Positions 9,794-27,897 of a stretch of DNA of 64,000 nt are shown here, piece after piece (position 1 is the first letter of the stretch; each line of letters begins with the position of its first letter). The position numbers and the translations under genes are program-made. This DNA is from an uncultured Phycisphaeraceae bacterium. Lineage in GTDB: Bacteria > Planctomycetota > Phycisphaerae > Phycisphaerales > UBA1924. The stretch covers positions 1 to 64,000 of the forward strand of contig CALCCF010000079.1 of assembly GCA_937899905.1 (NCBI GenBank), written 5' to 3'. The notes below the pieces were generated by a model. It was given only the letters and a program-made list of their open reading frames with translations, did not search any database and had not been told where the DNA came from.

Positions 9794-10654
9794 ATGTTCG
9801 CCGGGGGCCGGCGGGGTGTACGGTTGCCCGTGATCGACACCCACTGCCACCTGACGTTCCCGCAGTTCGAGGGCCGCGTGGCCGAGGAGCTGGCCGAGGC
9901 CGGCCGCCACGGCGTGCGAGGCTGCATCACGATCAGCACGACGCCCATGAACGCGCTCGAATGCCTGCGTCTGGCGACGAGCTTCCCGAACGTGTGGAGC
10001 AGTGCTGGCGTGCATCCTCTGTATGCCGACCAGGGGCCGTTCGATCTGACGCCAGTCCGCACGGCGATCGCGCACGAGCGCTGCGTGGCCTGGGGAGAGA
10101 TGGGCCTGGACAACCACTACGCCGAGCCGCCGCGCGCGATGCAGGAGCCGGTGCTGATGCAGCAGCTTGCGCTGATCCGCGAGATCGACGCGCCGAAGAA
10201 GGGTAAGGCCCAGCCCGGCGCGAACAAGCCGATCGTGATCCACTGTCGTGAAGCGTTTGACGACCTCATCCCGATCCTGCGCGAAGCTGGCATCGCCGGC
10301 GAACGTTTCGTGTTCCATTGCTTCACGGCCGGGCCAGTCGAAGCGAAGCAGGTGCTGGACTTCGGTGCGATGATCAGCTTTACCGGCGTCGCGACATACA
10401 AGAACGCGAAAGAGGTCATGGAAGCCGCGGTTCTGACGCCGGCCGATCGGCTGATGGTCGAGACCGATGCGCCCTACCTGAGCCCGCAGCCGGTGCGTGG
10501 GCAGCGGCCGTGCCGGCCGTGGATGGTCTCGCTCACGGCGAAGCTCATCGCCGATGCGCGGGGCCAATCGATCGAAGACTTCGAACGCACGACCGATGCG
10601 AACGCCGCGCGCTTCTTCGGGATCGATCCAAGCATCGATCCGGGCCTCTCTTGA
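9794..10654 (+). CDS. tatD: TatD family metal-dependent DNase
   Basis: Encodes 286 residues from the ATG at 9794; TTG 9824 and GTG 9830 are alternative starts nearer the conserved region. Metal ligands of the TatD barrel are visible: DTHCHL (H17 and H19), GEMGLD, VIHCRE, FHCFTAG and ETDAPYLSPQP. TatD proteins are 3'-5' exonucleases or DNases of the amidohydrolase superfamily acting in the cytoplasm. A short Lys/Gly/Ala-rich insertion (PKKGKAQPGANK) interrupts the middle and is not a usual family feature. Divergent from the transglutaminase gene; the 216 bases after its stop show no obvious gene or terminator. Confidence 0.92.
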   Translation: MFAGGRRGVRLPVIDTHCHLTFPQFEGRVAEELAEAGRHGVRGCITISTTPMNALECLRLATSFPNVWSSAGVHPLYADQGPFDLTPVRTAIAHERCVAWGEMGLDNHYAEPPRAMQEPVLMQQLALIREIDAPKKGKAQPGANKPIVIHCREAFDDLIPILREAGIAGERFVFHCFTAGPVEAKQVLDFGAMISFTGVATYKNAKEVMEAAVLTPADRLMVETDAPYLSPQPVRGQRPCRPWMVSLTAKLIADARGQSIEDFERTTDANAARFFGIDPSIDPGLS

Positions 10655-10870
10655 GGTCGCGGTTGACGCGGGCCCCAGCCGATCCCAACGCACAAGGTCC
10701 CGAAGTCCGCGCAAATCGCAACTCGTCACGGGGACTCACAGCCCATGCCTTGAGAAGACGATCTCGCAGACGTACGAGCAAGATTGGAGCCCCAGGGCTT
10801 TCCCTCGGCGCACGCGCCCGCAGCGAAGCAGGGATAGGGAGTACTACCGAATCATTGTGAATGGCGGACT

Positions 10871-13800: not shown

Positions 13801-15235
13801 AGGCCGACTCATCCGCGTCAGTAAGGCTTGGTGCGAGACGCTGGGCTACACCGAAGAAGATGTGATTGGTAGGCCGAGCGTCGACTTCCTGACGCCCGCG
13901 TCTCGCGAGTACGCGCTACGCGAGGTGCTGCCCAGGTTCCAGGAAACCGGCCACTGCGAGAACGTCCGCTACCAGATGGTCAAGAAGGACGGCGGCATCA
14001 TTGATGTCCTGCTCACCGCCAACGTCGAGATCGATGACCACGGCGAGTTGCATGAGACCGCGGCGATGTTGGTGGATGTGACCGAGGCCGAGCGGATCGA
14101 GCGCGAATCGGTGCGTATCCGCCGCGGGATGGAGCAGGCGATGCCGGCCTACGCCCGTGTCGGTGCTGACGGCCTATACGAGGACGTGAACGACGCCCAC
14201 TGTGCGCTGATCGGTCACCCAAGGGATGCGCTCATCGGTACGTCCTGGTTGGACATCATCGACGAGGACGACCACGACCGGATGGCCGAAGCCCTGGCCC
14301 TGCTGGAGCAGCAAGATACGGCAGATATCGACGTGTACGTCCGCCGTCCCGACGGCTCGACGATCTGCAAGCGCGAAGTTCTGGTTGCCATCCGCGATGC
14401 ATCGGGAGCGTGCGTCGGGCACCACCGCTTCGCGCGAGACATCACCGAGCAGAAGCGCCTCGAGCAGGATCTGACGCGGGCGAACCGAGAGCTCGAACGC
14501 AAGAATCGTGAGATGGAAGAGTTCGTGTACACCATCAGCCACGACCTCAAGTCACCACTGGTCACGATTTCGGGGCTGGTGGGCTTCATCCGCAAGTTGC
14601 TGGCGAACGGCGAGCACAATCGGGTGCCCGATCTTGCCCTGAGCGTCGAGGAGACGACGCTTCGGATGCGTGAGAAGATCGAGGACCTGCTCGAGTTGAG
14701 CCGTCTTGGCCGCAGCGAAGCCCAGCAGGAACGTGTGGATTTGCGGGAGGTCGTGCTCAGCGTGCTGCACGAGCACCGCAACTCTCTCGAACGGATGGGC
14801 GCCGACATCTCGGTGGACGAACTGCCAACCGTCGTGGGCGATCCACGAAAGCTCGCCCGTGTCTTCGACAACTTGGTTATCAATGCCATGAAGCACGCGC
14901 AGCCGGCGGGGACGCTGCAACTCACCATCGAGCCCATCGGGCGGCCCGCGTGCGATGCGGGCGAAGTCGGCGTGCGCGTGCGCGACAACGGCGTTGGCGT
15001 GGATTCCAGCCACCAAGAACGGATCTTCGAGCTCTTTTCTCGGGGCAAGACCAACGCCGAGGGAGCTGGCATCGGTCTTGCGTTGGTCCGGCGGGTCATG
15101 GATCTGCACGGCGGGCGAGTTTGGACCGAACCTGCCGATGTAAATGGTGGCGACCGTGCACATGCGCCGGGGGCGTCGTTCTGCGTCGCCTTCCCGTGCC
15201 CGCCGCCCAGCGACTCGCACCGGGTGAATCCGTAG
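10871..15235 (+). CDS. CheB-CheR-PAS-histidine kinase hybrid sensor
   Basis: Encodes 1454 residues. Order: a low-complexity Pro/Thr/Ser N-terminus (1-105); a CheB methylesterase domain (about 108-290) with the catalytic triad S117 (GIGASAGG), H144 (VVQHLSPDF) and D238 ([11 protein letters not shown]); a CheR methyltransferase domain (about 320-590) with [16 protein letters not shown] and TCRNVLIYM; a Glu/Asn-rich coiled coil (about 756-830); three PAS-like regions (about 835-945, 960-1075, 1080-1195); a HisKA domain with phospho-acceptor H1224 in [10 protein letters not shown]; and HATPase ([35 protein letters not shown]). It probably senses a cue through PAS domains and drives the two receiver proteins encoded directly downstream. 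No membrane segment is seen, so it is cytoplasmic. The N-terminus start is uncertain because the first 105 residues are unconserved. Confidence 0.93.
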
Positions 15236-15304
15236 ATACCGGCCGGCTTGTTCGCCATGCACAGCGATTCGATACCACCATGATTCCACACGCAGAGAGA
15301 CTCA

Positions 15305-15802
15305 ATGCCAGAGCGTCAACAGCCCATCGGAGCGTCTGTCTCGGTACAGGGAGATTCCCAGGAAGTCGCGTCTGGAACGCACCGAGCCCACCGGGAGAGC
15401 GCGCCGGTACGCGTTCTCCTCGTTGAGGACAACGATGCTCACGCGTTGCTCATCGAAGCTGCGATCGGCCAGAGTGACGACTGCATCATCGATCGCTTTG
15501 TTACCGCAGAGGCAGCCGCAAACGCGGTGCAGGGTTTCGATGCCTACGACCTCATGATCCTGGATGTCGCGCTGCCCGGCGACAAGGGCATCGAATTTGC
15601 TCGCAGGATCCGCGAGAATGCCGCTTGGTCAGGGATTCCCATTGTAATCTTCAGTTCGTCCGAGAGTGCGGCGGATCACCGGTCGGCTCTCGATGCGGGC
15701 GCCAACAGCTACGTCGTGAAGCCGTTGGGATACGAGGCCTTTGAATCGACCGTGAAAGATATCGTTGCATATTGGACGCGGCTTCAGTATACTCCGCGTT
15801 AG
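15305..15802 (+). CDS. Stand-alone response regulator receiver
   Basis: Encodes 165 residues: about 33 unstructured N-terminal residues, then a single receiver domain. Acidic pocket E41-D42, phospho-acceptor D87 in LMILDVALPGDKG, the switch Ser cluster at 117-119 and K139 in YVVKPLG are all present. There is no output domain, so it resembles Rcp1/CheY-type shuttles used by bacteriophytochrome and CheB-CheR hybrid kinases. It begins 69 bases after the kinase and is followed one base later by the ANTAR regulator, so the three genes are probably one operon. A partner role for the adjacent kinase is inferred from position. Confidence 0.88.
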   Translation: MPERQQPIGASVSVQGDSQEVASGTHRAHRESAPVRVLLVEDNDAHALLIEAAIGQSDDCIIDRFVTAEAAANAVQGFDAYDLMILDVALPGDKGIEFARRIRENAAWSGIPIVIFSSSESAADHRSALDAGANSYVVKPLGYEAFESTVKDIVAYWTRLQYTPR

Positions 15803-15803
15803 C

Positions 15804-16505
15804 GTGATTGAAGATCGCTCAGATCGTGTCCAAAATGGCTTCGCTTCTCCTGCGGGTCCTGACGTAACTGCCGACGCCGCCGCTGATGGCTCGGGATTCT
15901 CGAAACTCAAGGTCGCGATCGCCGACGACCGTAGCAGCGACCTTGATCGCGCAACCGCGGCAGTCGAGGCCGCGGGGTACGAGGTCGTGGTGCGGTGTTC
16001 CAGCGGCGACGCGTTCTCATTCGCCTGTCAAGAAGCCGAGGTCGACGTCGCGCTGCTCGACATCTGCATGCCCGACGTGGACGGCATCCGACTGTCCGTC
16101 GAACTCATTGAAGAACAACGCGTCCCGTCGGTTATTATGTCGGCGCAGTTCGACCCGGTGTACCTTGAGCACGCGCAGGAAGCGGGCGTGTTCGGCTACC
16201 TCACCAAGCCGGTGCAGGCTTCGCAGGTGCAGGTGTCGCTGTATCTCGCGCACCGTCACTTCCAACTCTGGAAGCCGGGCGAGGACATCCAGGGCTCGGT
16301 CGACGCGCGCCGACGCGCGCGACGCATCATCCGGGACGCCGTGCGCTTGATCTCCGACAGCGAGAAGTGCGGCATTGAAGAGGCACACGAGCGGCTCGAG
16401 CACTATGCGCGAGAGAGCTGCGACACCAAGCGCGAAGCCGCCGAGTATGTCGCGGGCTATTTGGACAAGGCGGCGGCCAGGGCTCGAAGCGCCGGCGACG
16501 CGTAG
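15804..16505 (+). CDS. Receiver-ANTAR response regulator (putative transcription antiterminator)
   Basis: Encodes 233 residues from the GTG at 15804, one base after the previous stop; an upstream TTG at 15765 would overlap that gene. The receiver domain (about 35-150) has D41-D42, phospho-acceptor D86 in ALLDICMPDVDG, S113 and K135 in GYLTKPV. The C-terminal three-helix region (about 155-225, RARRIIRDAVRLIS ... GIEEAHERLEHYAR ... TKREAAEYVAGYL) fits an ANTAR RNA-binding domain, which in other bacteria dimerises on phosphorylation and binds paired hexaloop hairpins to prevent termination. The ANTAR match is by pattern and less certain than the receiver. Confidence 0.82.
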   Translation: MIEDRSDRVQNGFASPAGPDVTADAAADGSGFSKLKVAIADDRSSDLDRATAAVEAAGYEVVVRCSSGDAFSFACQEAEVDVALLDICMPDVDGIRLSVELIEEQRVPSVIMSAQFDPVYLEHAQEAGVFGYLTKPVQASQVQVSLYLAHRHFQLWKPGEDIQGSVDARRRARRIIRDAVRLISDSEKCGIEEAHERLEHYARESCDTKREAAEYVAGYLDKAAARARSAGDA

Positions 16506-16705
16506 CGGCGAGCGGTCCGGCCAGAATCGCGACGCGATCGGCGGACCACCCTTGCAACTTCGCAGGCCCGATTGCACGATCCGCGCTCGGCTAGTTCGGG
16601 CACCTCGTCCAAGCAGTCCAGCCACCAGAAGTTCACCCCGCGAACACAGTCCTCGGGGGTCACGCCGGGCCGCATCCCGTACACCGTGAACCGTCGCCGG
16701 AGCAT
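16457..16705 (-). CDS. Possible small or decayed gene, unrecognised
   Basis: An 82-codon frame starts at an ATG and overlaps the 3' end of the ANTAR gene by 49 bases. Its first 40-45 codons have a natural composition (TVYGMRPGVTPEDCVRGVNF, then WWLDCLDEVPELAERGSC) and third positions that are nearly all G or C, as in neighbouring genes. After that, the sequence turns into Arg/Ala-rich residues typical of a non-coding frame. This looks like either a very small gene or a truncated or frameshifted remnant. No family is recognised. Confidence 0.3.
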   Translation of the reverse strand: MLRRRFTVYGMRPGVTPEDCVRGVNFWWLDCLDEVPELAERGSCNRACEVARVVRRSRRDSGRTARRYASPALRALAAALSK

Positions 16706-16772
16706 CGCCCGCCTTCGGTGACGCCGGTGATCCCCCTTGCCACGCCGCCACAGCCGATCCGCGGCCGCGAAG

Positions 16773-16821
16773 GTCCGGATACGGGTTGAATTTGGGGTTA
16801 GCGGGCGACCGGTATCCGGAC
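16773..16821. repeat. Inverted repeat between convergent genes
   Basis: GTCCGGATAC (16773-16782) and GTATCCGGAC (16812-16821) are perfect 10-base arms around a 29-base loop. It lies 15 bases beyond the stop of the minus-strand membrane protein gene. The remaining part of the 331-base gap 16506-16836 shows only the small frame noted at 16457-16705. It may act as a terminator, but there is no long T run on either strand. Confidence 0.45.
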
Positions 16822-16836
16822 TTTGGACTGTCAGGA

Positions 16837-17862
16837 CTACGGGCTCGGAACCGCCGGCAGCTCGTACACGTCGGCGTCCCCACCACTCACCACACCATCA
16901 ACCTCGACCCACGTGTCCGGCCGCGCGAAGCTGGCGCGCCATTGGAGGGCGTTGTCGAGGCGCTGCACGAGGGTGTCGCGGGTGTCGGCGTCGAACAGGA
17001 CAATGCCCGACGGCGTGCGCGCGGTCTCTTCCGGCGCAGCCAACTCCCTCGCCAGCCGCTCGAGCAGGGCCTGGGCGCCGGCGCTCTTGAGCGGGGCCGC
17101 GCGGTCGATGGCGTAGCGCACGGCCTCGTCGTCGCCCGCAGCCAGCCCGGCGTCGGCGATGGCCTCGAGCACGTCCATGGGCGGGGGCACGAAGCCCTGC
17201 CGCATCTCGGGCGTGCCGGTGTCCAGGAACTGGAGCTCGCTGATCGCCCATGTGGCGGTCCGCAAGCCCGGAGTGGGACCCGTCGACGGGTTGACCGATC
17301 GATCGTGCGTCATGCCGGCGTGGCGCATGATGCGTTCGAACTCGGCGTCGTCCACCTCGGTCCGCTCGCGCAGGCGCGCCTCCATCCGCGAGCTGGGCCA
17401 TGAATCGACCCAGCGCGTGCCACCAGCGCGCTTGGTGAGCTCCTGCATCTGGCGTGCGTGCTGCACCAGGGTGAGCAGCCGCTCGGGCGGCGTCGCCAGC
17501 ACGCGCTCGTACCACGCGCGGGCGGCGTGGCCGTATTGGTGGTGCCACAGCAGCCGCTCCCAGCGATCGTCGCTGTACATGTAGTCGGGGTTGGGCACGG
17601 GCCCGGTCTGCAGGTGCGCCGCGGGCCCACCGAAGCGCAGCTGGTCGGGGTACGGCTCTGCCTGTTCGAGCAGGAACGCCAGCACCGGACGCGGCGTCAT
17701 CTCCGTCCAGTGGTCGGCCAGCAGCGAGCGGATGGCCAGGCCCGCCCCGGCCACGAACACGACGACGGCCAGGATGCGGGCGGGCCGGCGACTGGTCAGC
17801 GGGTTGACGCAGATCGCGGCGCCGGCCAGCAGCACGCCCGTGATGACACCGGTGAGGACCAT
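16837..17862 (-). CDS. Two-helix membrane protein of unknown function
   Basis: Encodes 341 residues from the ATG at 17862; upstream in-frame codons (ATG at 17940 and earlier) are Arg/Pro-rich and look non-coding. Two hydrophobic segments at the start (VLTGVITGVLLAGAAICV, ILAVVVFVAGAGLAI) are followed by about 290 soluble residues with Trp/Tyr-rich stretches such as WERLLWHHQYGHAARAWYE and a helical region resembling irregular TPR-like helices. No catalytic motif is recognised. The soluble part may be periplasmic. It is divergent from the lipoprotein gene at 18043. Confidence 0.75.
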   Translation of the reverse strand: MVLTGVITGVLLAGAAICVNPLTSRRPARILAVVVFVAGAGLAIRSLLADHWTEMTPRPVLAFLLEQAEPYPDQLRFGGPAAHLQTGPVPNPDYMYSDDRWERLLWHHQYGHAARAWYERVLATPPERLLTLVQHARQMQELTKRAGGTRWVDSWPSSRMEARLRERTEVDDAEFERIMRHAGMTHDRSVNPSTGPTPGLRTATWAISELQFLDTGTPEMRQGFVPPPMDVLEAIADAGLAAGDDEAVRYAIDRAAPLKSAGAQALLERLARELAAPEETARTPSGIVLFDADTRDTLVQRLDNALQWRASFARPDTWVEVDGVVSGGDADVYELPAVPSP

Positions 17863-18042
17863 ACAGAATCGTTGGCGCGCGGACCGAGGATCTCCGCAGG
17901 CGTTTACGCCGACCAAACGAGTACCCCCCGGTTGTATCATGGGATGGATCGAACGCGCGGAACCGCCAGGCTCAGGCCAACCTGAGAAGCGGTAGAACCG
18001 CAGACTGGGCCGGGAATCCCAGGGGACGAGGGAGGAGCGCAG

Positions 18043-19197
18043 ATGGCGATCACGGCGGGACGCACGCGGCACTCCAGGTCGTGGCCAAGAGGCATGGTCG
18101 CCGGGACCGCGCTGGCCTTCGCCGCCAGTCTCGTGGGGGCGTGCTCGCATCGGCCACCGCCGGCGTTCGAGGGTGTCGTGGCCGCGCCCACAACGTACGC
18201 GCTCTACTCAGACACGCTCGAGCGACGCGAGCAGATCCTGCCGCTGGGCACCACGGTGGACGAACTCGACCAGCTCGACGCGCGGCCCCTGCGCGAGTGG
18301 CTGCGCGCCACGGTGGGAACGGTGACGAACACGCCCGATGCCGGCATCCTCCGGGTCCGGGTACTGTATTCGGATGTGGCCACCCCAGACGGGCGCGCCC
18401 GCCTGGGCCTGGCGCGGTCTGTCGATGGACGGGTGGTGGTCCGCATGTTCGAGGACGCGGTCGAGCTCGACGCGCTCGGTGGCGGGTACTACTTCGTGTG
18501 GTACAGCCGGTACCTCAGCGCGGTCTGGGACGCCGTGGCGCAGTCCTTTCTGCCAACCCAGCCGCCGCGCTCGCCGGGCGGCGTAGCGGTGCTTGAGGGC
18601 GGCATCTTGGTTGCCATGGACAACGAGGATCGCCATCTCAGGCTGTGGGACCGTGACGGCACGCCGCTACCAGTGCCGGAATCGATGGCATCCTGGGGCA
18701 TCGGGAGCATCACCGGCCTTCACCACGGCCAGATCGTCATGCTCACCACGCCCAAGATCCCGAATCCCGAACGTCGAGTGATGGACGCGACGTGGGCATG
18801 GAGGCCCGGCAGCGACCCCGTGCAGCTCTGGCCTGGCTCCTCGGTTATGTCCATCTCAGGCAGCAACCAGCAGTTCGTGTCGACGCGGTCCAGGGTCCGA
18901 CGGATCGATCTTGAGAGCGATGGCACGGTCCGGACGACGACCATGCGTGGCGTCACATCGATGAACATCTCGCCGGACGATCGCGCCATTGTCGAGCGGA
19001 TCGACGTCTACGACCGCGGATGGAAGTGGGCCAAGCTGCTTGACACGTACTGGAACGTCCGCGAGATCTCGGGCAACCGGGCGCGTCCGCTGGCGGAGGG
19101 TTTGCGGTTTGTGGGCGACGGTTCGGTGTGGCTGGAGCCGGGACGGTTCGCCGGGGCGGTCGAGGTTGTGGTCGTTCCCAGACCGCCAGCCCCCTAA
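18043..19197 (+). CDS. Putative lipoprotein of unknown function
   Basis: Encodes 384 residues. GGAGGAG lies about 6 bases before the ATG. A long basic n-region and hydrophobic core end in the lipobox LVGAC, with the lipidated Cys at residue 34. The mature part is beta-rich with WD/propeller-like spacing (GGVAVLEGGILVAMDNEDRH, RLWDRDGTPLPVP, ISPDDRAIVERIDVYDRG) but no definite family. It is probably anchored in the cytoplasmic or outer membrane, facing the periplasm. No operon partners are visible. Confidence 0.75.
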   Translation: MAITAGRTRHSRSWPRGMVAGTALAFAASLVGACSHRPPPAFEGVVAAPTTYALYSDTLERREQILPLGTTVDELDQLDARPLREWLRATVGTVTNTPDAGILRVRVLYSDVATPDGRARLGLARSVDGRVVVRMFEDAVELDALGGGYYFVWYSRYLSAVWDAVAQSFLPTQPPRSPGGVAVLEGGILVAMDNEDRHLRLWDRDGTPLPVPESMASWGIGSITGLHHGQIVMLTTPKIPNPERRVMDATWAWRPGSDPVQLWPGSSVMSISGSNQQFVSTRSRVRRIDLESDGTVRTTTMRGVTSMNISPDDRAIVERIDVYDRGWKWAKLLDTYWNVREISGNRARPLAEGLRFVGDGSVWLEPGRFAGAVEVVVVPRPPAP

Positions 19198-19211
19198 CAC
19201 GCGAGTCAGGT

Positions 19212-19271
19212 CTACCGCCGCCCAAACATGCGCTCCAGATCACGCATGATCAGACGCACCGAGGTCGGGCG
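19212..19271 (-). pseudogene. Relict of the mutL 3' end (direct repeat with 26032-26091)
   Basis: Read on the minus strand this segment encodes RPTSVRLIMRDLERMFGRR followed by a stop. The intact mutL at 26032-27897 ends RPTSIRLTMRDLERMFGRR and stop. The DNA is identical at 48 of 60 positions, with most changes at third codon positions. Upstream of this stretch the frame loses all MutL similarity: the CPHG that precedes RPTS in the intact gene is replaced by Arg-rich sequence. Both copies point the same way, 6.8 kb apart. The copy could be an attachment-site remnant, a remnant of a displaced mutL allele, or the end of a partial duplication. Confidence 0.75.
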
Positions 19272-19278
19272 ACGGCGG

Positions 19279-19304
19279 CGTGTTGCTGGCGTAGCCGCAA
19301 CACG
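19279..19304. repeat. Inverted repeat beside the mutL relict
   Basis: CGTGTTGC (19279-19286) and GCAACACG (19297-19304) are perfect 8-base arms around a 10-base loop. It starts 8 bases inside the mutL relict boundary and 90 bases before the start of the nine-HTH gene. It could be an operator for that gene or part of a recombination site. The 8-mer GCAACACG also occurs at 56866-56873 upstream of the giant gene, which may be chance. Confidence 0.5.
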
Positions 19305-19393
19305 CTCGCAGAGGCCACGCGCAAGAACTGCCTGGGCCGCCTCGACGACCGTGCCGGCCAAAGCCGGGCGTGCGAAGGACCGATACCCACGGC

Positions 19394-22018
19394 ATGACCC
19401 GGACCCAAGCCGATCGCATCGCCGACGAGACCCAGCACGCGCCGCCCCCCGCCGCCGACGCCACCACTGCGCCGGCGACGCACGTCGGGGCCACGTACAC
19501 CCTGAAGGAAGCCTGCGCGCTGGTCGGCCTCACGCGCGATGCGTGGACGAGCTGGCAGAAGCGTGGGCTGCTGCCCGAGGGCAGGATCGGCACCGGCCGC
19601 GAGCACGACCGCCGGGTGCTGGTCTTCACGCAGGCCGAGGTCGAACAAGCGCGCGCGGCGGTGGAGCGCAGCGGGCTGGCGACGCCCGAGCACACGGTCA
19701 CGTACGACCAGGTCGTCGAGATGCTGGGCATCTCCAAGTCGCGCATGTACGAGATGATCAAGAGCGGACGCTTCCCCCCCGGCCGCTGGGCCGCGCCGAC
19801 CGAGGGCAACGGCCGGGGCAACCGCCGCAAGATGTTCACGCCCGCCGAGGTCGAGCAGGCCCGCACGGCGCTTGCCGAGTTCATGAACAAGGGACCCGAG
19901 ATCGACGGCAAGCCGGCCGTCACCCTGCAGGATGCTGCGGCGATGATCGGTCTGACGCGGGCGCAGTGGCGCGCCTGGCAGGACAAGGGCTGGGCACCCA
20001 AGGGCAAGACGGCCAAGCAGCACGGCACCGTCGGCGGGAACGCCCAGCTCTACACCAGGGCGCAGATCGAAGAGCTGAAGTCCTCGCTCGAGCGCGGCGA
20101 GCACCCAGGCGCCGAGTACATCGCCACGCCGCGGCACAGCATCACGAATGAAGAGGCCGCGCGGCTCGCCGGCGTCTGCGGCCACGCGTGGCACGAGCTG
20201 AGCCAACGCGGGCAGCTGCCCGAGGGCCGCTGGGCGCCCAATCCCAAAGGCACCGGCAAGGGCGGGCTGCGCAAGCTATACACGCCCGAGGACGTCGAGG
20301 CGCTGAAGGCCGCCATGGCGCAGCTGGAAGCCGAGCGGCAGCCGACGATCGATGGAAGGCCCGCGCTGACCGTGCTCGAGGCCGCCGCGATCATCAACAT
20401 CTCGCGCCCGCTGTGGTACGAGTGGGACCGCAAGGGCTGGCTGCCGCAGGCCCACAAGGTCCCGCTCAAGGGCGGCGGCAACATCAACGGCAGGATGATG
20501 AACCTGTACACGCCCGAGCAGATCGAGGAACTGAAGGCCGCCATCGACGCCGGCGAGCACCCCGGCGCGCAGGGGCGCGGCACGGCCGAGCACACCATCA
20601 CCCGCGCCAAGGCTGCGAAGATGCTGGGCATCACCGTGTCGATGTGGTCGACGTGGGAGAAGGAGGGAATCGTGCCCAAGGGCAAGCTGCCGCCGCTCTC
20701 GCCGAATCTGGGTTTGGACGGCGGCCGGAAGCTGTGGACGCCCGCGCAGGTCGAGGCGGTGCGCGCGAAGGCCACCGAGATGGGCATCCTTGAGCCCGCG
20801 GCTACGCCCGAGCACGTCCTCACGCGCAAGCAAGCCGCGGAGCTCGTAGGCATCCCGACGGGCATGTGGACGTACTGGTGCCGGCGGGGCGTGATCCCCA
20901 CCGGCCGCTGGCGCACCAACCCCAGCGGCTCGGGGCACGGCGGCTTGCGCCGCATGCACTCGCTCGAAGAGGTGCGCGAGGCCCGCGCCGCGCTCGACGA
21001 AATCGGCTTTGGTCGGTCGGCCAACGCGACCGAGGCCCACACGCTGACGCAACGCGAGGCCGCTCGGCTGCTGGGCGTCGAGGCGACCGCGCTACAGGGC
21101 TGGGAGAAGCGCGGCCTGATGCCCATGGGCGCGTGGGCCCGCGCCACGAAGGGCCCGGCGCTGCGCAAGATGTACACGCCCGCGCAGGTCGAAGAGGCCC
21201 GAGAGGCGCTCCAGAGCCACGGCATCCGCTGCTTCGACCGCGCGACCGACGAGCACACCTACTCCCGCCAGCAGGCGGCGCGCTTCATCGGCGTGCCGTT
21301 CTCGACGTGGTCGCACTGGGAGCACCAGGGCCGCACGCCGGTGGGCGCCTGGGGGCGCCAGGCCACGGGCAAAGGCCGATGCAAGATGTTCACCCACGCC
21401 GAGCTCGCGGCGTTCGCCGAGGAACTCGAGAAGCTGCACAAGCCCTACGCCGACCCGGATCGCCCGGGCGTGCACCGCGTACCGATCCGTACCGGCAAGG
21501 GACGTATGGAAGCGCTCATCGACTCCAGCGACCTGCACCTGGTCGAGTGCAAGCACTGGAACTATTCGGAACGAACCGACGACTATGGCACCCACGGCGT
21601 AGTCGTGCTTTCGACCGTCAAGGGGCGGATGAAGCCGCTGAAGCAGTTCATCACGGGCGTGAGCGGGCACCGCTGGCGCATCCGCCACGCCAACGGCGAC
21701 TTCCTCGACTGCCGGCGTGAGAACCTGGTCGTGCTGGACATCGCCCAGCAGAGCTACGGCAACAAGAAGATCAAGATGCGAGCCGGCTACAAACCGACGT
21801 CGAAGTACAAGGGCGTCTGCTGGGACGAACCACGAGGCAAGTGGTTGGCTCAGATCAATAAGGACGGGAAGCACCACCACCTTGGACGCTTCAACGACGA
21901 GATCGACGCCGCCGACGCCTACGACAACGCCGCGCGGGAGCTGTTCGGCGAGCACGCGTACCTGAACTTCGACGGCGTGGCCGATCGCTCCGAAGCGGAG
22001 CCAAGGTCGGCTGCGTAG
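19394..22018 (+). CDS. Nine tandem HTH repeats fused to HNH-like and AP2 domains
   Basis: Encodes 874 residues from the ATG at 19394; a GTG at 19370 would add 8. Nine repeats of about 60 residues each occur at about 34-93, 102-163, 176-234, 249-311, 325-385, 401-463, 475-538, 550-609 and 621-681. Each has the pattern hTxxEAAxhhGhxxxxWxxWxxxGhhPxG, then a basic loop and hYTPxxhExhxxAh, matching an excisionase/MerR-like winged HTH. Residues 692-792 resemble the degenerate HNH module of phage and cyanobacterial HNH-AP2 proteins (VPIRTGKG, RHANGDFLDCRRENL). Residues 803-860 form an AP2 DNA-binding domain (YKGVCWDEPRGKWLAQI, LGRFNDEIDAADAYDNAARE). It is cytoplasmic and presumably reads an extended DNA site; nuclease activity is uncertain because the HNH core is altered. 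Neighbours are a mutL relict upstream and a sulfatase module downstream. Confidence 0.9.
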   Translation: MTRTQADRIADETQHAPPPAADATTAPATHVGATYTLKEACALVGLTRDAWTSWQKRGLLPEGRIGTGREHDRRVLVFTQAEVEQARAAVERSGLATPEHTVTYDQVVEMLGISKSRMYEMIKSGRFPPGRWAAPTEGNGRGNRRKMFTPAEVEQARTALAEFMNKGPEIDGKPAVTLQDAAAMIGLTRAQWRAWQDKGWAPKGKTAKQHGTVGGNAQLYTRAQIEELKSSLERGEHPGAEYIATPRHSITNEEAARLAGVCGHAWHELSQRGQLPEGRWAPNPKGTGKGGLRKLYTPEDVEALKAAMAQLEAERQPTIDGRPALTVLEAAAIINISRPLWYEWDRKGWLPQAHKVPLKGGGNINGRMMNLYTPEQIEELKAAIDAGEHPGAQGRGTAEHTITRAKAAKMLGITVSMWSTWEKEGIVPKGKLPPLSPNLGLDGGRKLWTPAQVEAVRAKATEMGILEPAATPEHVLTRKQAAELVGIPTGMWTYWCRRGVIPTGRWRTNPSGSGHGGLRRMHSLEEVREARAALDEIGFGRSANATEAHTLTQREAARLLGVEATALQGWEKRGLMPMGAWARATKGPALRKMYTPAQVEEAREALQSHGIRCFDRATDEHTYSRQQAARFIGVPFSTWSHWEHQGRTPVGAWGRQATGKGRCKMFTHAELAAFAEELEKLHKPYADPDRPGVHRVPIRTGKGRMEALIDSSDLHLVECKHWNYSERTDDYGTHGVVVLSTVKGRMKPLKQFITGVSGHRWRIRHANGDFLDCRRENLVVLDIAQQSYGNKKIKMRAGYKPTSKYKGVCWDEPRGKWLAQINKDGKHHHLGRFNDEIDAADAYDNAARELFGEHAYLNFDGVADRSEAEPRSAA

Positions 22019-22077
22019 CAGACACACTCCAGGCGCGAAGACACGGAACCTGGCCTCCCTCGCAACTCAGAACTTTG

Positions 22078-23211
22078 TTACGAGTCCTCGGACCCTTCGG
22101 CCGGTGGCGGCGCATCGCTGACGCACCGGAAACCCAGGTGGCTCATCGCGGTGTCGGACGGCGCCGCCATGCGGGCGCTGGGGCGGTAGCTTGCGCAGTA
22201 GCTGTCGTTGCAGAGGAACGAGCCCCCGCGGTGGACGTAGCTCCTGGTGGCCAGTGGGTTGCGCGGGTCGACGGCGCGCTCGGGCCCGCGTGGGTTCACG
22301 AACAGCGGTTCGTCGTCGCCGTCGCGCATCGGGGCCGAGACGCGGCGGACGTACTCGTCGTGGCGGTATAGGTCACTCGTCCACTCCCACACGTTGCCGG
22401 CCACGTCGTAGAGGCCGTAACCGTTGGGCGGGAAGCTGCGCACCGGCGCGGTGCGCATGTGCCCGTCCTGGAGCGTGTTGTTGTGCGGGAAGCGACCGTC
22501 CCAGATGTTCGCGTGCGTCGGCCCGACGGGCTCGTTGCCCCAGGCGTTGACCGCACCGTCCAGCCCGCCGCGCGCGGCAAACTCCCACTCGGCCTCGGTC
22601 GGCAGCCGCCTGCCGGCCCATTGGGCGTACGCCACGGCGTCGTCCCAGGCGATGTGCACCACCGGGTGGTCCATGCGGTTGCCGATGCCCGAGCCCGAGC
22701 CCTCGGGGTGCTTCCAGCTGGCGCCCTTCGTCCACGTCCACCACAGGCCGAAGTTGCGCAGGTCGACGGCCGACTCGGGCGGCGTGAACACCAGCGAGCC
22801 GGGCTCGAGCGCCTCGTCGGGCGGCCTGGGCGTGCCCTCTGGCAGCTGCTTTTTCAGCTCTTCCCAGTCGACCGGGCGCTCGGCGACCGTGACGTAACCG
22901 GTCGCGTCGACGAAGGCCTTGAACTGGGCGTTGGTGACCTCGGTGGCGTCGATCCAGAAGCCGTCGACTCGCACACGGTGCACGGGCGCTTCGTCGAGGC
23001 GCGCGAGCGGGTCGGTCGAGCCCATCGCGAACTCGCCGCCGGGGATGTAGACCATACCGTCGGTGGATTGCGCCGCTTCGGGGTGTTCCTGCTGCGCGAA
23101 CACGGCCAGACGCATGGCGGCCGGGTTCGCCGGCTGGCAGCACGCGGGCAGGTCATCGGCGGTTGCCGACTGCATCGCGAGGACCATGATGGCAAGGGCG
23201 TTGATCGGCAC
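22078..23211 (-). CDS. Formylglycine-generating enzyme (sulfatase-modifying factor)
   Basis: Encodes 377 residues from a GTG at 23211; an ATG at 23187 is an alternative. FGE oxidises the sulfatase active-site Cys to formylglycine, using copper and oxygen. The FGE-sulfatase fold is clear: MVYIPGGEFAMGS (53-65), RRLPTEAEWEFAARGG (201-216), GLYDVAGNVWEWTSD (266-280), and the catalytic pair C334 and C339 in RGGSFLCNDSYCASYR, with GFRC at the end. Both catalytic Cys are present, so this is a true FGE rather than a catalytically silent relative. A short hydrophobic N-terminus ending near TADD suggests export. It lies 9 bases after the HAD gene and is last in the sulfatase operon, so its likely substrate is the sulfatase encoded at 24265-25893. 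Confidence 0.92.
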   Translation of the reverse strand: MPINALAIMVLAMQSATADDLPACCQPANPAAMRLAVFAQQEHPEAAQSTDGMVYIPGGEFAMGSTDPLARLDEAPVHRVRVDGFWIDATEVTNAQFKAFVDATGYVTVAERPVDWEELKKQLPEGTPRPPDEALEPGSLVFTPPESAVDLRNFGLWWTWTKGASWKHPEGSGSGIGNRMDHPVVHIAWDDAVAYAQWAGRRLPTEAEWEFAARGGLDGAVNAWGNEPVGPTHANIWDGRFPHNNTLQDGHMRTAPVRSFPPNGYGLYDVAGNVWEWTSDLYRHDEYVRRVSAPMRDGDDEPLFVNPRGPERAVDPRNPLATRSYVHRGGSFLCNDSYCASYRPSARMAAPSDTAMSHLGFRCVSDAPPPAEGSEDS

Positions 23212-23220
23212 GGATGAAAC

Positions 23221-24195
23221 TCAGGGGAAGATGGTCGCCCAGTCCCGGGCCATGTCGACGACGACCCAGCCGCGCTGCTCGGCCTCGTCGAGCCCGCGGA
23301 CGAGCCGGCCGACGTGCGAGTCTCGGTCGTAGGCCCACTCGCGCTCGGCGTCGGTGTGGTGCACGAGCAGCCCGAAGCGCGGGCCGTCGCCCGCAGTCAC
23401 GTACTCGAGCATCTGGAAGTCGCCGTCGGAGTTGCCCGCCGCGAAGAAGGGCCGCCGGCCGATGTGCTGGTGGATGCCCACCGGCTTGCCCTCCTTGTCG
23501 TCGATGAAGTTCAGCTCGGCCAGCTTCACCAGGGTGGGCACGCCGTTGCGTACCTCGTAGCCGGTCTTCATGCCGCTGCCGACGACCTGGTGCGACGGGA
23601 TGCCGTAGACCTCCTCGGCGAACACACGCAGGAAGTCGATGCCGCCGCCCGAGACGATAAACGTCTGGAAGCCGTTCTTGCGAAGGTACTCAAGCAGTTC
23701 GAGCATGGGCTTGTAGACCATGTCGGTGTACCGGCGGCCGGTCGTCGGGTGGCGGGCGGTCTCGAGCCACTCGCGGACGGTGTCGTCGAACTGCTCGGTC
23801 GACATGCCCGCGTGCGTGCGGGCGATGATCTCGCCGATGGCCTTGTGGCCCTGCTTCGCGAGCGACTCCATGTCGCCCGCGAGCACACTCTTGTAGGGCT
23901 CGGTAGTCATCCAGCCGGGGTTGTCGGGCGCCATCGCCCTGATTCGATCGACCGCGAAGAGCAGCTGGAAGTACACCGGCTGCTCGGCCCACAGGCAGCC
24001 ATCGTTGTCGAACGTGGCGATGCGGTCGCCGGGCTCGACGTAGTCGGCCGAGCCCTCGGTGGTGACGCGCTCGACTAATGTCACGATGGCCTGCTTCGAC
24101 GCGCCGTCGTTCCACGAAGGCAGGGCGTCCTGCGCTCTTGCGATCGCGGAAACGCACAACAGAGCAAGGAGCACGGGGAGCGTTGTCCTGGCCAT
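23221..24195 (-). CDS. Exported HAD-superfamily phosphatase-like hydrolase
   Basis: Encodes 324 residues with GGAGGAT 4 bases before the ATG and a signal peptide ending ARAQ. HAD motif I is D63-N-D65 (TFDNDGCLW), motif II is VSGGGID near 187 and motif IV is GNSDGD near 255, the pattern of SerB-like class I HAD phosphatases with an alpha-helical cap between motifs I and II. It would act in the periplasm, where it might dephosphorylate organic phosphates released during polysaccharide breakdown. It sits between a sulfatase and its activating enzyme, with 69 and 9 base gaps, so all three are likely cotranscribed. The substrate is unknown. Confidence 0.88.
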   Translation of the reverse strand: MARTTLPVLLALLCVSAIARAQDALPSWNDGASKQAIVTLVERVTTEGSADYVEPGDRIATFDNDGCLWAEQPVYFQLLFAVDRIRAMAPDNPGWMTTEPYKSVLAGDMESLAKQGHKAIGEIIARTHAGMSTEQFDDTVREWLETARHPTTGRRYTDMVYKPMLELLEYLRKNGFQTFIVSGGGIDFLRVFAEEVYGIPSHQVVGSGMKTGYEVRNGVPTLVKLAELNFIDDKEGKPVGIHQHIGRRPFFAAGNSDGDFQMLEYVTAGDGPRFGLLVHHTDAEREWAYDRDSHVGRLVRGLDEAEQRGWVVVDMARDWATIFP

Positions 24196-24264
24196 CGGGA
24201 TCCTCCGTTGGGAAAAGCAACCAGCCGCCGTCAGGCGATCGATTGCGATGGATTCAGGATGCGA

Positions 24265-25893
24265 TCAGCGGCCGCGGGCGGCGTCTTCGATCTGCTCCTG
24301 CACCTTCTCCAGGTTGAACGAGCCTGGCGTCTGGCTCGGCGGGTACTCCTGCAGCGTCTGGAAGAACTGCCCGGCGACCTGCTGCATGGGCACGATCACG
24401 TAGGGGCGGTCGAGGAACCAGTCGTGGTAGGTGTTCGCGTCGATCTGCGCCTTCTCGAACGGATCGCGACGCAGGTGGAACAGCAGGGGAACGCGCAGCT
24501 CGGTGAACGGCTCACGCCAGATCTGGAACGCGTCGGCACGGTTTTCAAGGAACACGCCCTTCCAGTCGCCGAGGCGCATCGCCACAACCTGGGCGTCATC
24601 GTTGACGTAGATGAACTCCTTGCGAGGCGAGGCGGTGATGTTGTCGTGGAACGTCTCGAACGTGTCAGCCGCGGCGAAGTACTCGTTCATGTCGTAGCCG
24701 TCCAGGTGCTGGCGATACTCGCGGCCGATCGCGCTGTAGCCGTCCAGCATGTCCGCCTTGAGGTCGGCCTTGCCGGCGGCGGTCGCGAAGGTCACCATCC
24801 AGTCCTCGTGGGCGACGATCCCGTTGAGCGTGTGGCCGGCGGGCCACTGCCCGGGCCAGCGGGCGAACGCGGGCACGCGGTAGGCACCCTCCCAGTTGCT
24901 GTTCTTCTCCTTGCGGAAGGGCGTGTAGCCGGCGTCCGGCCACGTGTTGAAGTGCGGACCGTTGTCGGTCGAGTACATGACGATCGTGTTGTCGGTGATG
25001 CCCAACTCGTCGAGCAGGTCGAGCAACTGGCCGACGTGGCCGTCGTGCTCGATCATGCCGTCGTGGTACTCGTCGCCATGGGGCGCCGAGAGGCCGATCG
25101 TCTCTTCCTTCAGGTGCGTGCGGAAGTGCATACGCGTGCCGTTCCACCAGCAGAAGAAGGGCTCGCCGGATTCCACGGTGGTCTTGATGAACTCGATGGC
25201 CTCGGCGACGGTCTCATCGTCGATGACCCTCATCCGCTCGATGGTCAACTGGCCGGTATCTTCGACCCGGTGCTGGCCGTCCTGCATCGAGGAACGGATC
25301 ACGCCGCGCGGGCCGTAGGTCTCAAAGAAGGTCTTCCCGCTCGGCAGCACCATGTCACCGGGGTAGTCGCGGTTCTCGGGTTCTTCCGAGGCGTTGAGGT
25401 GGTAGAGCGGGCCGAAGAACCGATCGAAACCATGGTTGGTGGGCAGATGCTCGTCGCGGTCGCCAAAGTGGTTCTTGCCGAACTGGCCCGTCGCGTAGCC
25501 CTGCTCTTTCAGCACGGCGGCGATGGTGATGTCCTGCTCCTGCCAGCCCTCGGCCGCGCCCGGCAGGCCCACCTTGGTCATGCCCGTGCGGACGGGCACG
25601 GTCCCGCCCAGGAACGCCGCCCGGCCAGCAGTGCAGCTCTGCTGGGCGTAATAATCGGTGAAGCTCAGGCCCTCGCGGGCGATGCGATCGATGTTGGGCG
25701 TGCGGTAGCCCATCATGCCGCGGTTGTTGTGGCTGATGTTCCAGGTGCCGATGTCATCGCCCCAGATAACGAGGATGTTCGGCTTCCCGCCCTGGTTGTT
25801 CTGGTTGTTGCGCTGGTTCGAGCCACGCTGGGCGAAGGCCGTCGAGGCCATCGCCAACGCCGCAACCAGCACGATCGTGCTGCGCCAATGCAT
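24265..25893 (-). CDS. Exported arylsulfatase-family sulfatase (Cys type)
   Basis: Encodes 542 residues. The ATG at 25893 is preferred because AGGAG lies 7 bases before it; an in-frame ATG at 25899 is too close. The signal peptide ends TAFAQ. Metal residues D46 and D47 (IWGDD), the formylglycine site C87-T-A-G-R91 and the second metal motif STDNGPHFNTWPD are present, so it is a Cys-type sulfatase that needs FGE. It cleaves sulfate esters, probably of a sulfated polysaccharide or lipid, in the periplasm or outside the cell. It is the first gene of the sulfatase-HAD-FGE set. A Gln/Asn-rich linker follows the signal peptide. Confidence 0.93.
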   Translation of the reverse strand: MHWRSTIVLVAALAMASTAFAQRGSNQRNNQNNQGGKPNILVIWGDDIGTWNISHNNRGMMGYRTPNIDRIAREGLSFTDYYAQQSCTAGRAAFLGGTVPVRTGMTKVGLPGAAEGWQEQDITIAAVLKEQGYATGQFGKNHFGDRDEHLPTNHGFDRFFGPLYHLNASEEPENRDYPGDMVLPSGKTFFETYGPRGVIRSSMQDGQHRVEDTGQLTIERMRVIDDETVAEAIEFIKTTVESGEPFFCWWNGTRMHFRTHLKEETIGLSAPHGDEYHDGMIEHDGHVGQLLDLLDELGITDNTIVMYSTDNGPHFNTWPDAGYTPFRKEKNSNWEGAYRVPAFARWPGQWPAGHTLNGIVAHEDWMVTFATAAGKADLKADMLDGYSAIGREYRQHLDGYDMNEYFAAADTFETFHDNITASPRKEFIYVNDDAQVVAMRLGDWKGVFLENRADAFQIWREPFTELRVPLLFHLRRDPFEKAQIDANTYHDWFLDRPYVIVPMQQVAGQFFQTLQEYPPSQTPGSFNLEKVQEQIEDAARGR

Positions 25894-26031
25894 CTGCATT
25901 CTCCTGTGTGGATCTCTGCCGTGGGTCCCCTGCGAGGCGGGCACTCACCACGGCACGGTCCCCCTTACCTTGACCGATTGAACCGGCCGGCGAGGACGGA
26001 GCCGCCTCAGGACTATCCCGCGAACTCGTGG

Positions 26032-27897
26032 CTATCGACGCCCGAACATGCGTTCGAGGTCGCGCATCGTCAGGCGAATCGAGGTCGGGCGGCCATGGGG
26101 GCAACTGGCGCTGCGCTCGACCTTTTCACGGAGTTCTAGCAATGCGCTCAGTTCCTGATCGCTCAGGGCATCGCCGGCCTTGACGGCGGCCTTGCAGGCC
26201 ATCATGTCCAGGACCTCGCGCAGCGCGTCCTCCTGGTCTTTGGGCAGGTCGTCGGCCTCGAGCAACTCGGCCATGAACTCGGCCGGATCGACGCCGCGGC
26301 TGAAGAGCAGGCTTGGGAAGGCGTGCACGGCGACGCGCGTGGGGCCGGCGGCGGTGGCGTCAATGCCAAGCGTGTACAGGATTGGTGCGAGCGCTTCGAG
26401 CTTCTCGGGCGCATCGGCCACGCCGACCATCGCGGGGGTGAGCAGTCTCTGACTCTCCAAATCGCCGTGGCTGGCGATGCGGCTGCGCAGGGCCTCGAAC
26501 ATGACGCGCTCGTGCAACGCGTGCTGGTCGATGATGACCACGCCATCGCCCGAGCCGTCGGGAGCGACGAGGTACGAATCTCGAATCTGCATCGCACGAC
26601 GCATCCAGGGGCCGTCGGGGGCGCGGTCGATGGGTGCAGGTTCGATGGACGAGTCCGTACTCGGGTCCTTCGGTTCGACCAGCGCCTGCGGTTGCGGCTC
26701 CGTTCGACTCAGCACGGCGTGCACTTCGGCGTCGGTCAGCCGGTCGGCGAGTTCGCGGGCCTCGTTGGTCAGATCCGCGGCCCGCGTTCCTGTGAAGATT
26801 GCGCCGTCGGCAGGAACGAAGGGCTGCCATGGGCGCGCGGCGCTCGGATTGACCTCGGTGAAGGACGCGGTCAGGTCCTCGCCGGCCAGCGCTTCGCGCA
26901 CCGAGCCGTGGACGGCGGCGTGGATCGCCGAGGAATCTCGGAAGCGGACCTCGGCCTTGGCAGGGTGCACGTTGACGTCGACCATCGACGGGTCGATATC
27001 GATCAGCAGCACGGCCACGGGATGCTTGCCGGGCTCGATCAAGCCGCGGTAGGCCTCGCGAAGAGCATGAGCAATCGTCGCGTCGCGCACCACGCGGCCG
27101 TTGAGGACGATCCACTGGCCCTTCGCGTTGCCGCGCGCGGCGTGCGGGCGGCCAACCAAACCCCAGAGGTTCACGTTGTATGTCTCAGCCGCAACGCCGG
27201 TAGCCTCGATCATCGCCTCGGCGAGGTCTTGCCCCAGGATCGAACGCACGCGGTCCGGCGCGCTTTGGTTCGCGGGCAGGTCGAGCGTGGTGTGGCCGTC
27301 ACAGGTGAGCTTGAAGCCGATAGCGGGCCGAGCGAGCGCGAGCCCCTTGACGGCCTCGACGCACCGCTGCTTCTCGGTCTGGGCGGTGCGCAGGAACTTG
27401 CGACGCGCCGGCGTGTTGAAGAAGAGGTTGCGTACCTCGATGACCGTGCCCAGCGCGCCGCTCGCGGGCAGCGGACCCTCGACCACGTCACCCTCGACAC
27501 GCAGCTCTGATGCTTCGCTCGCGCCGGCGGGGCGGGACCGGATCCGCAGCCGGCTCACGCTGGCGATGCTCGCCAGGGCCTCGCCGCGGAAGCCCATGGT
27601 CGCCACGGCGTCCAGGTCATTGGGGCTGGTGATCTTGCTGGTCGCGTGGGGCGCCACGGCCATGGGCAGCTGCTCGGGCATCATGCCGCAGCCGTCGTCG
27701 GCGACGCGGACCAGTTCGATGCCGCCGGCTTCGAGCTCGACGGTGATCTGCGTTCCGCCCGCGTCCAACGCATTCTCGACGAGTTCCTTGACCACCGAGG
27801 CGGGCCGCTCGACGACCTCGCCCGCGGCGATCTGGTTGATGACCAGGGGGTCGAGGGCTCGGATCGTTGGAAGGGTCTCGGGCGTCGAAACAGCCAT
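26032..27897 (-). CDS. mutL: DNA mismatch repair endonuclease MutL
   Basis: Encodes 621 residues from the ATG at 27897. The N-terminal GHKL ATPase has NQIAAGEVVERPASVVKELV (21-40), ENALDAG and the DDGCGM and GFRGEAL motifs. The C-terminal domain carries DQHALHERVMFE, fitting the DQHA(x)2E(x)4E endonuclease motif, and CPHGRP near the end. It should therefore nick DNA itself, as in species without MutH. The last 60 bases, encoding SIRLTMRDLERMFGRR, are matched 48 of 60 by a remote copy at 19212-19271. It is divergent from the HAL2-type gene with 40 bases between starts. Confidence 0.97.
   Translation of the reverse strand: MAVSTPETLPTIRALDPLVINQIAAGEVVERPASVVKELVENALDAGGTQITVELEAGGIELVRVADDGCGMMPEQLPMAVAPHATSKITSPNDLDAVATMGFRGEALASIASVSRLRIRSRPAGASEASELRVEGDVVEGPLPASGALGTVIEVRNLFFNTPARRKFLRTAQTEKQRCVEAVKGLALARPAIGFKLTCDGHTTLDLPANQSAPDRVRSILGQDLAEAMIEATGVAAETYNVNLWGLVGRPHAARGNAKGQWIVLNGRVVRDATIAHALREAYRGLIEPGKHPVAVLLIDIDPSMVDVNVHPAKAEVRFRDSSAIHAAVHGSVREALAGEDLTASFTEVNPSAARPWQPFVPADGAIFTGTRAADLTNEARELADRLTDAEVHAVLSRTEPQPQALVEPKDPSTDSSIEPAPIDRAPDGPWMRRAMQIRDSYLVAPDGSGDGVVIIDQHALHERVMFEALRSRIASHGDLESQRLLTPAMVGVADAPEKLEALAPILYTLGIDATAAGPTRVAVHAFPSLLFSRGVDPAEFMAELLEADDLPKDQEDALREVLDMMACKAAVKAGDALSDQELSALLELREKVERSASCPHGRPTSIRLTMRDLERMFGRR

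Follow-up and report, generated by a model that had tools for sequence, protein, structure and literature searches.

We describe a gene on contig CALCCF010000079.1 of an uncultured Phycisphaeraceae bacterium (assembly GCA_937899905.1), whose first 64,000 nucleotides form the stretch analysed here, called the window. The gene encodes a protein in which nine winged helix-turn-helix (wHTH) modules stand in a row before a degenerate HNH domain and an AP2 domain. The order of these domains is conserved among relatives, the metal ligands of the HNH domain are lost and the HNH-AP2 part is related to phage HNH-AP2 proteins. Based on these observations, we propose that the product is a chromosomal DNA-binding protein that arose from a former HNH-AP2 homing endonuclease and would lie head to tail on DNA as a repressor or local organiser, an explanation that we hold to be moderately probable. 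The architecture is real, selected and family-specific; it is new in the sources searched, and its parts are of known kinds. No description of wHTH arrays fused to AP2 was found in the open-access literature searched, and 0 papers there join 'AP2 domain' with 'Phycisphaerae'.

Nine winged-helix modules in one chain

The open reading frame (ORF) runs on the forward strand from an ATG at 19394 to the end of the stop codon at 22018 and encodes 874 amino acids (aa), just where the earlier note had placed it; a GTG 24 bases upstream of the ATG is a possible alternative start. The modules begin at residues 34, 101, 175, 249, 324, 401, 475, 550 and 622, at spacings of 67, 74, 74, 75, 77, 74, 75 and 72 residues, and their pairwise identity is 16-44%. 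The features of the gene and its leader are as follows.

19307..19393, forward strand: conserved upstream leader, with a small hairpin and CCGATA 8 bases before the ATG
19394..22018, forward strand: whole gene, nine wHTH modules, degenerate HNH and AP2; 874 aa
19493..19693, forward strand: module 1, aa 34-100
19694..19915, forward strand: module 2, aa 101-174
19916..20137, forward strand: module 3, aa 175-248; no Arg/Lys at wing columns 49-50
20138..20362, forward strand: module 4, aa 249-323; most conserved among relatives (mean identity 0.88)
20363..20593, forward strand: module 5, aa 324-400; no Arg/Lys at wing columns 49-50; 42% identity to module 3
20594..20815, forward strand: module 6, aa 401-474; modelled without a wing strand of at least three residues
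20816..21040, forward strand: module 7, aa 475-549
21041..21256, forward strand: module 8, aa 550-621; recognition helix with a block difference, window and G005 against G003 and G001
21257..21445, forward strand: module 9, aa 622-684
21446..21796, forward strand: HNH-derived domain without metal ligands, aa 685-801
21797..22015, forward strand: AP2 domain and tail, aa 802-874; Pfam AP2 at 803-852

Across the entire protein, Pfam HTH_17 scored 97 bits (cut-off 27; E-value 7e-28) over four separate stretches and MerR_1 81.2 bits (cut-off 21.6; 6e-23) over three, while phrog_66 of PHROGs matched six separate stretches and the PADLOC wHTH model mad1 eight (1e-48). A profile built from the nine modules recovers all nine at 4e-22 to 4e-30, a result that is not independent. 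An AlphaFold2 model from seven sequences (mean predicted local distance difference test (pLDDT) 71.7; predicted template modelling score (pTM) 0.31) shows three helices in each of the nine modules and both wing strands, of at least three residues, in seven; module 2 has one such strand and module 6 none. Linkers from the last helix of one module to the first of the next measure 10-18 residues. Pfam profiles and model alike place the repeats among MerR/HTH_17 winged helices, which bears out the claim, first made from the sequence alone, of nine tandem wHTH modules in a single chain. The nearest PDB match of the module profile is the wHTH domain of CarH (3e-4), together with CarH relatives. Foldseek pointed at E about 0.3 to BldC (6ama, probability 0.98) and RdfS (8dgl, probability 0.95), and with the whole model it returned no match at 0.001 or better.

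The named families matched by the modules are DNA-binding regulators, excisionases and small terminases. Could the protein belong to a defence system or a mobile element, as a MADS Mad1-like regulator, an excisionase or a small terminase? The eight stretches matched by PADLOC mad1 and the phrog excisionase and terminase matches speak for such a part, yet the NCBIfam MAD1 model (NF047737) reaches 12.7 bits against a cut-off of 80, and the PADLOC score therefore sums short wHTH matches. The scanned neighbours, moreover, are chromosomal (two-component, sulfatase, MutL) or have no Pfam match, and we give this explanation hardly any credence.

An HNH-AP2 block that lost its metal ligands

The block behind the modules matches phage HNH endonucleases (phrog_99, 1e-26). 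Pfam AP2 stands barely above its cut-off (34.2 against 33.3 bits) and HNH_3 well below (16.4 against 24.8 bits). In a separate model of the block (mean pLDDT 80.6) the C-terminal part resembles the AP2 domains of WRI1 and TEM1 (Z 10.2) and of ATERF1 (Z 8.5), and its assignment as AP2 stands. The HNH fold is also present, with a modest alignment to I-HmuI (1u3e; Z 5.1, root-mean-square deviation 3.0, 70 residues, 11% identity).

The catalytic residues of I-HmuI are D74, H75 and N96, according to PMC12724721. Among 122 aligned HNH-AP2 blocks, 17 from fused proteins and 105 others (several of the viral loci being near-duplicates), the catalytic set is intact in 98/105 of the others and in 0/17 of the fused. 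The equivalent of D74 is present in 1/17 fused blocks, which has Phe for His, against 102/105 others; that of His75 in 12/17 against 103/105; that of Asn96 in 0/17 against 99/105; and an upstream His in 1/17 against 95/105. Asn87 is found in 17/17 and 104/105, a comparison that is not fair, as viral blocks were found by patterns partly covering the N87 region. The window protein has Arg, His and Gln at the aligned catalytic columns, and the first block of L061, a two-unit relative, has an Asn one residue off the N96 column and has lost both Asp and His. The degeneracy that the earlier note had seen in this one HNH domain extends across the fused family. To judge from these residues, the protein is not a working homing endonuclease and is evidently a chromosomal protein derived from one; an assay of the HNH block for metal-dependent cleavage is expected to be negative.

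The set of HNH-AP2 ORFs numbered 119, of which 12 have wHTH modules; the 107 others comprise 97 ORFs in 80 viral loci, five in phage or plasmid records and five in genomes of the order. In these 107 the module profile found no credible module, its only matches being at E of at least 3 and inside the block, and the design is as unusual as it had first appeared; divergent modules could escape, since the profile scores some real modules of genome G016 at E 0.7-4 only. A tree of 72 sampled blocks has a branch (96/88) that separates the 17 fused blocks, together with two of the four stand-alone blocks of f106, another Phycisphaerae family, from the other blocks sampled. The f106 blocks inspected by eye are degenerate as well, a hint, though no proof, that loss of the nuclease preceded the gain of modules.

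In the class and phylum searches, the first of which scored 8 candidates per genome, 26 loci (28 ORFs) were read and none has a credible module; among the other, unread matches, some in ORFs of more than 1200 aa, further fusions may exist. Separately, genomes of f115 and f116 in the class carry many HNH-AP2 genes each, up to 75 candidates in one. In many of them 8/8 scored candidates matched, with a motif mostly intact by eye among those inspected, and some of the genes sit in ORFs of more than 1200 aa.

Orthologs and growth of the array

Full-length nine-module orthologs occur in three more genomes of the genus, at 81, 75 and 74% identity and in one case on contig JAUHYE010000062.1, which brings the gene to 4/7 genus genomes searched (window, G005, G003 and G001). 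All modules of the four orthologs (36/36) have their nearest counterpart in the module of equal number in another ortholog, and the nine-module order is therefore older than the split of the four genomes. Over the gene, pairwise nonsynonymous divergence (dN) is 0.11-0.21 against a synonymous divergence (dS) of 0.36-0.52, with the AP2 part (dN 0.05-0.10) one of its most constrained regions.

In the order, a profile of the HNH-AP2 block matched 16/301 genomes at 1e-10. Eleven of the 16 have a fused wHTH-HNH-AP2 protein, 12 proteins in total. Those with at least three modules together with AP2, the kind that the earlier note had proposed to look for, are the nine-module protein in four genomes and the products of a six- and a three-module gene in G016; G081 has one module, and in G035, G054, G103, G249 and G282 each protein consists of two consecutive module-HNH-AP2 units. 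The counts of six and three combine weak profile matches (E 0.001-4; 1e-5 to 0.2) with repeats seen by eye and the module tree. The HNH-AP2 block without a module was found in five genomes, in G029 with its frame interrupted by a stop. Homologues thus exist, in 11/301 genomes, but the open-access literature searched gave no paper on them.

How did the array grow? Modules 3 and 5 are the pair with 42% identity and group in the module tree (95/93), the grouping of modules 2 and 4 is weak (88/65), and the linkers of pairs 2-3 and 4-5 match. The two pairs seem to be copies of one another, with modules 2 and 3 perhaps an older two-module unit. The six G016 modules form a group of their own (98/92), apart from the nine, and it appears, less firmly, that the six- and nine-module arrays grew separately; the module tree has 67 columns only and drew a program warning of long branches meeting. 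At 1e-8, a module-pair profile matched 4/392 genomes of the phylum, three of the genus and G054, with 10 candidates scored per genome and G001 and G016 presumably not sampled; the G054 protein so matched holds two separated modules. In four of the five two-unit proteins (L025, L026, L059, L060 and L061, from five genomes) the C-terminal part is Fn3-like by eye, with no Pfam match at 0.01. Near the three-module gene, a 50-residue frame encodes an AP2 fragment (L023, G016:C9:7499-7624) that is perhaps the remnant of a duplicate.

Recognition faces of the modules

The earlier note had likened the array to TALE proteins, each module reading a few bases. TALE proteins and C2H2 zinc-finger arrays have many DNA-binding modules per chain, in folds unrelated to wHTH, and TALE repeats are near-identical, unlike the modules here. 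In helix 2, the share of ortholog pairs that differ is 41% at columns 15, 16, 19 and 20 and 27% at exposed columns, and 2.8% of random exposed column sets are as variable as these four, which were picked after the data had been seen. A sliding control puts the outer face of helix 1 ahead of them and ranks them 2 of 44; taken by themselves, the two columns that match BldC base contacts show no exceptional rate (18.5% of random sets). The dN/dS ratio is 0.52-1.22 at columns 15/16/19/20, 0.29-0.47 at other exposed columns and 0.10-0.23 at buried ones, from 36 codons in four sequences with exposed and buried columns assigned by hand from the sequence pattern. By module, the recognition faces of 2 and 4 vary at one position only and those of 5, 8 and 9 most, and that of module 6 differs in G005 only. 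There is a hint here that recognition faces may have been re-targeted between relatives.

The wings give a second view of the modules. Their net charge is positive in 34/36, with helix 2 at merely -1 to +3. The Arg/Lys missing at wing columns 49-50 of modules 3 and 5 is missing in 4/4 orthologs, and in module 1 in 2/4; the wings of modules 3 and 5 still have a net charge that is positive or near zero. With modules only 16-44% identical, modules 3 and 5 without the basic wing pair and base-contact columns that are not fast, a TALE-like reading of bases by each module is at most a conjecture. Given also the post hoc choice of columns, the sliding rank and the result for the BldC-contact columns, we retain a TALE-like code solely as a speculative reading. 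It is unlikely, in our view, that the protein is a new bacterial modular DNA reader grown from a nuclease-dead homing endonuclease, in which distinct wHTH modules each read a few bases, array length varies with lineage (1 to 9) and faces are re-targeted between close species like zinc-finger arrays in genetic conflict.

The same data bear on a sequence-tolerant architectural protein with no fixed target, whose modules would wrap DNA or compact it through indirect readout, as do RdfS, P2 Cox and BldC filaments. Such a protein would fit the module matches to Cox, excisionase and BldC-like proteins, the positive wings beside a helix 2 of only -1 to +3, and the drift of exposed recognition positions among relatives. 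According to PMC11963761, RdfS gave no consensus motif, and the binding of BldC to one promoter does not depend strictly on sequence. However, the gene is single and sporadic in the genus, unlike that of a general nucleoid protein, AP2 is strongly constrained and the recognition faces of modules 2 and 4 are almost fixed, which leaves this alternative doubtful.

That the modules bind protein or RNA as a scaffold, rather than read DNA, would agree with the missing basic wing pair of modules 3 and 5 and with a helix 1 outer face that changes faster than the recognition face. A Trp, however, stands at column 21 in 7/9 modules and is invariant across orthologs, and this column appears to align with Trp31 of BldC. 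BldC Trp31 touches phosphate and the next subunit, as described in PMC5859096. This residue, together with matched families that are DNA-binding regulators, excisionases and small terminases, makes a scaffold highly improbable.

Genomic place and upstream leader

G005 and G003 have the gene at the place that it occupies in the window, flanked by the same conserved blocks and beside mutL, while G004 has other genes in the interval by mutL. Within the genus, positions 10620-26036 of the window have variable gene content between conserved flanks and end at mutL. Among the neighbours are a CheB-CheR-PAS-kinase fusion, a response regulator, a sulfatase, an FGE-like gene and MutL, with UvrB further off; several neighbouring ORFs have no Pfam match. 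Immediately beside the gene are ORFs at 18043-19197 (no Pfam family) and 22078-23211 (FGE-sulfatase). The CheB-CheR-PAS-histidine kinase fusion (10871-15235, 1454 aa), with the response regulator after it, is in the variable interval.

As had been noted before, no partner integrase is adjacent: none is present among the 21 ORFs scanned with Pfam at 2.3-40 kb, shorter and overlapping ORFs being unscanned and distant integrases not sought, and these 21 include no nuclease partner. No gene accompanies the nine-module protein at all its places. A shared-neighbour comparison across the family gave no common partner of the nine-module gene; the clusters that reach distant family members are the fusion protein, its opposite-strand overlapping ORFs, a few genes of two-unit members, the G016 loci and one G001 ORF. 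A flagellar cluster was considered and discarded: the window has a single flagellin-like gene, yet the next conserved gene is MutL. Elsewhere in the window, the minus strand at 47056-57564 holds an ORF of 3502 aa with no Pfam match at 1e-4.

The leader is kept in 4/4 orthologs, including G001 at its other locus, with an ACGCGCA block, a CAAA-loop hairpin and CCGATA. The last lies exactly 8 bases before the ATG in 7/12 fused genes (the four nine-module genes, both of G016 and that of G282). The arrangement CAAAG-N12-CCGATA resembles what we take to be the flagellar (sigma-28) consensus. A sigma-28 promoter was unsupported, AAAG-N14-16-CCGATA occurring 4 times in the genome against 7 times for the reversed control; the pattern is in 0/4 flagellin-like genes within the stretches fetched, and a looser AA-CCGATA stands just before one of them, the one in this window. 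A riboswitch was likewise dismissed, no Rfam family coming near threshold for the leader. A fold of the four leader sequences has three pairs in which both partners have changed, alongside others that break, too little for an RNA claim.

A model for the nine-module protein

We suggest the following history. The ancestor would have been an HNH-AP2 homing endonuclease of phage type whose nuclease centre died while its AP2 domain was retained as a DNA clamp. MerR/HTH_17-type winged-helix modules would have come to stand in front of HNH-AP2, and tandem duplication would have multiplied them, here to nine. The chain would most likely lie along DNA head to tail, one module per about 9-11 base pairs, like subunits of BldC or CarH. 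Its reach could be up to roughly 80-100 base pairs plus the AP2 contact, a figure that is arithmetic from BldC and CarH spacings and not a result. At one site or a small number of them, it would serve as a repressor or organise the DNA locally.

Known systems supply the elements of this model. Plant AP2/ERF transcription factors have no wHTH array and, to our knowledge, no HNH part, whereas here the dead HNH is retained. Their AP2 domain is related to HNH-AP2 endonucleases, and they provide the precedent in the literature (Magnani 2004, as cited in PMC6781369). The phage HNH-AP2 homing endonucleases (such as those of Bacillus phages Stahl and 268TH002; phrog_99) have the same HNH-AP2 order and homologous sequence, but, unlike the fused family, phage HNH-AP2 ORFs are mostly 150-350 aa, have the full catalytic set in 98/105 blocks and yielded no credible wHTH module of this kind. 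BldC of Streptomyces and RdfS of Mesorhizobium share the MerR/HTH_17-type winged helix and use their units head to tail. BldC protomers bind 9-base-pair direct repeats in this way (PMC5859096), RdfS forms a superhelical filament (PMC11963761) and CarH binds tandem 11-base-pair repeats (PMC9304148). BldC and RdfS have one module per short chain, as separate subunits, whereas here nine different modules and HNH-AP2 are joined in one; CarH/CarA, the nearest PDB profile match of the module, has one wHTH per chain with a B12 light-sensing part and no array.

Several observations weigh against the model. At a pTM as low as 0.31, the AlphaFold2 model does not predict how the modules are placed with respect to one another, and an operator search at 10-27 kb found no tandem unit of 9-11 bases in more than 2.7 copies. 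Modules 3 and 5 may be spacers, so that not every module would touch DNA. A single origin of the fused blocks is unsupported, with a long-branched f106 row among them and one change in 6% of bootstrap trees. The nine-module gene was not found in 3/7 genus genomes, and in G001 it lies on another contig while the interval by mutL is without it; the gene is therefore dispensable and may move, and a dispensable, possibly moving gene poorly fits a core regulator. These last points would suit a selfish homing gene in decay, without a role in the host, that goes on spreading through recombination, for example, or by means of a partner nuclease. Its descent from phage-type HNH endonucleases, its sporadic presence in the genus, its other place in G001 and its position in a variable-content interval beside mutL are all as such a gene would have them. 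The metal ligands, however, are lost family-wide, yet frame, nine modules and AP2 are under purifying selection; the gene keeps the same place in 3/4 genomes, and the ORFs scanned hold no nuclease partner. We regard a selfish gene as improbable and retain the chromosomal DNA-binding protein as the preferred explanation.

What would such a protein mean for the biology of this family? If DNA is bound as proposed, the array would be a covalent, length-evolving version of the subunit assembly of BldC, RdfS and CarH, and the protein a bacterial parallel to plant AP2/ERF factors, an HNH-AP2 endonuclease turned DNA-binding protein. The four relatives, which share these nine modules while their recognition helices have partly changed, allow specificity to be tested directly, module by module, and long-site DNA recognition would gain a new scaffold in the winged-helix array.

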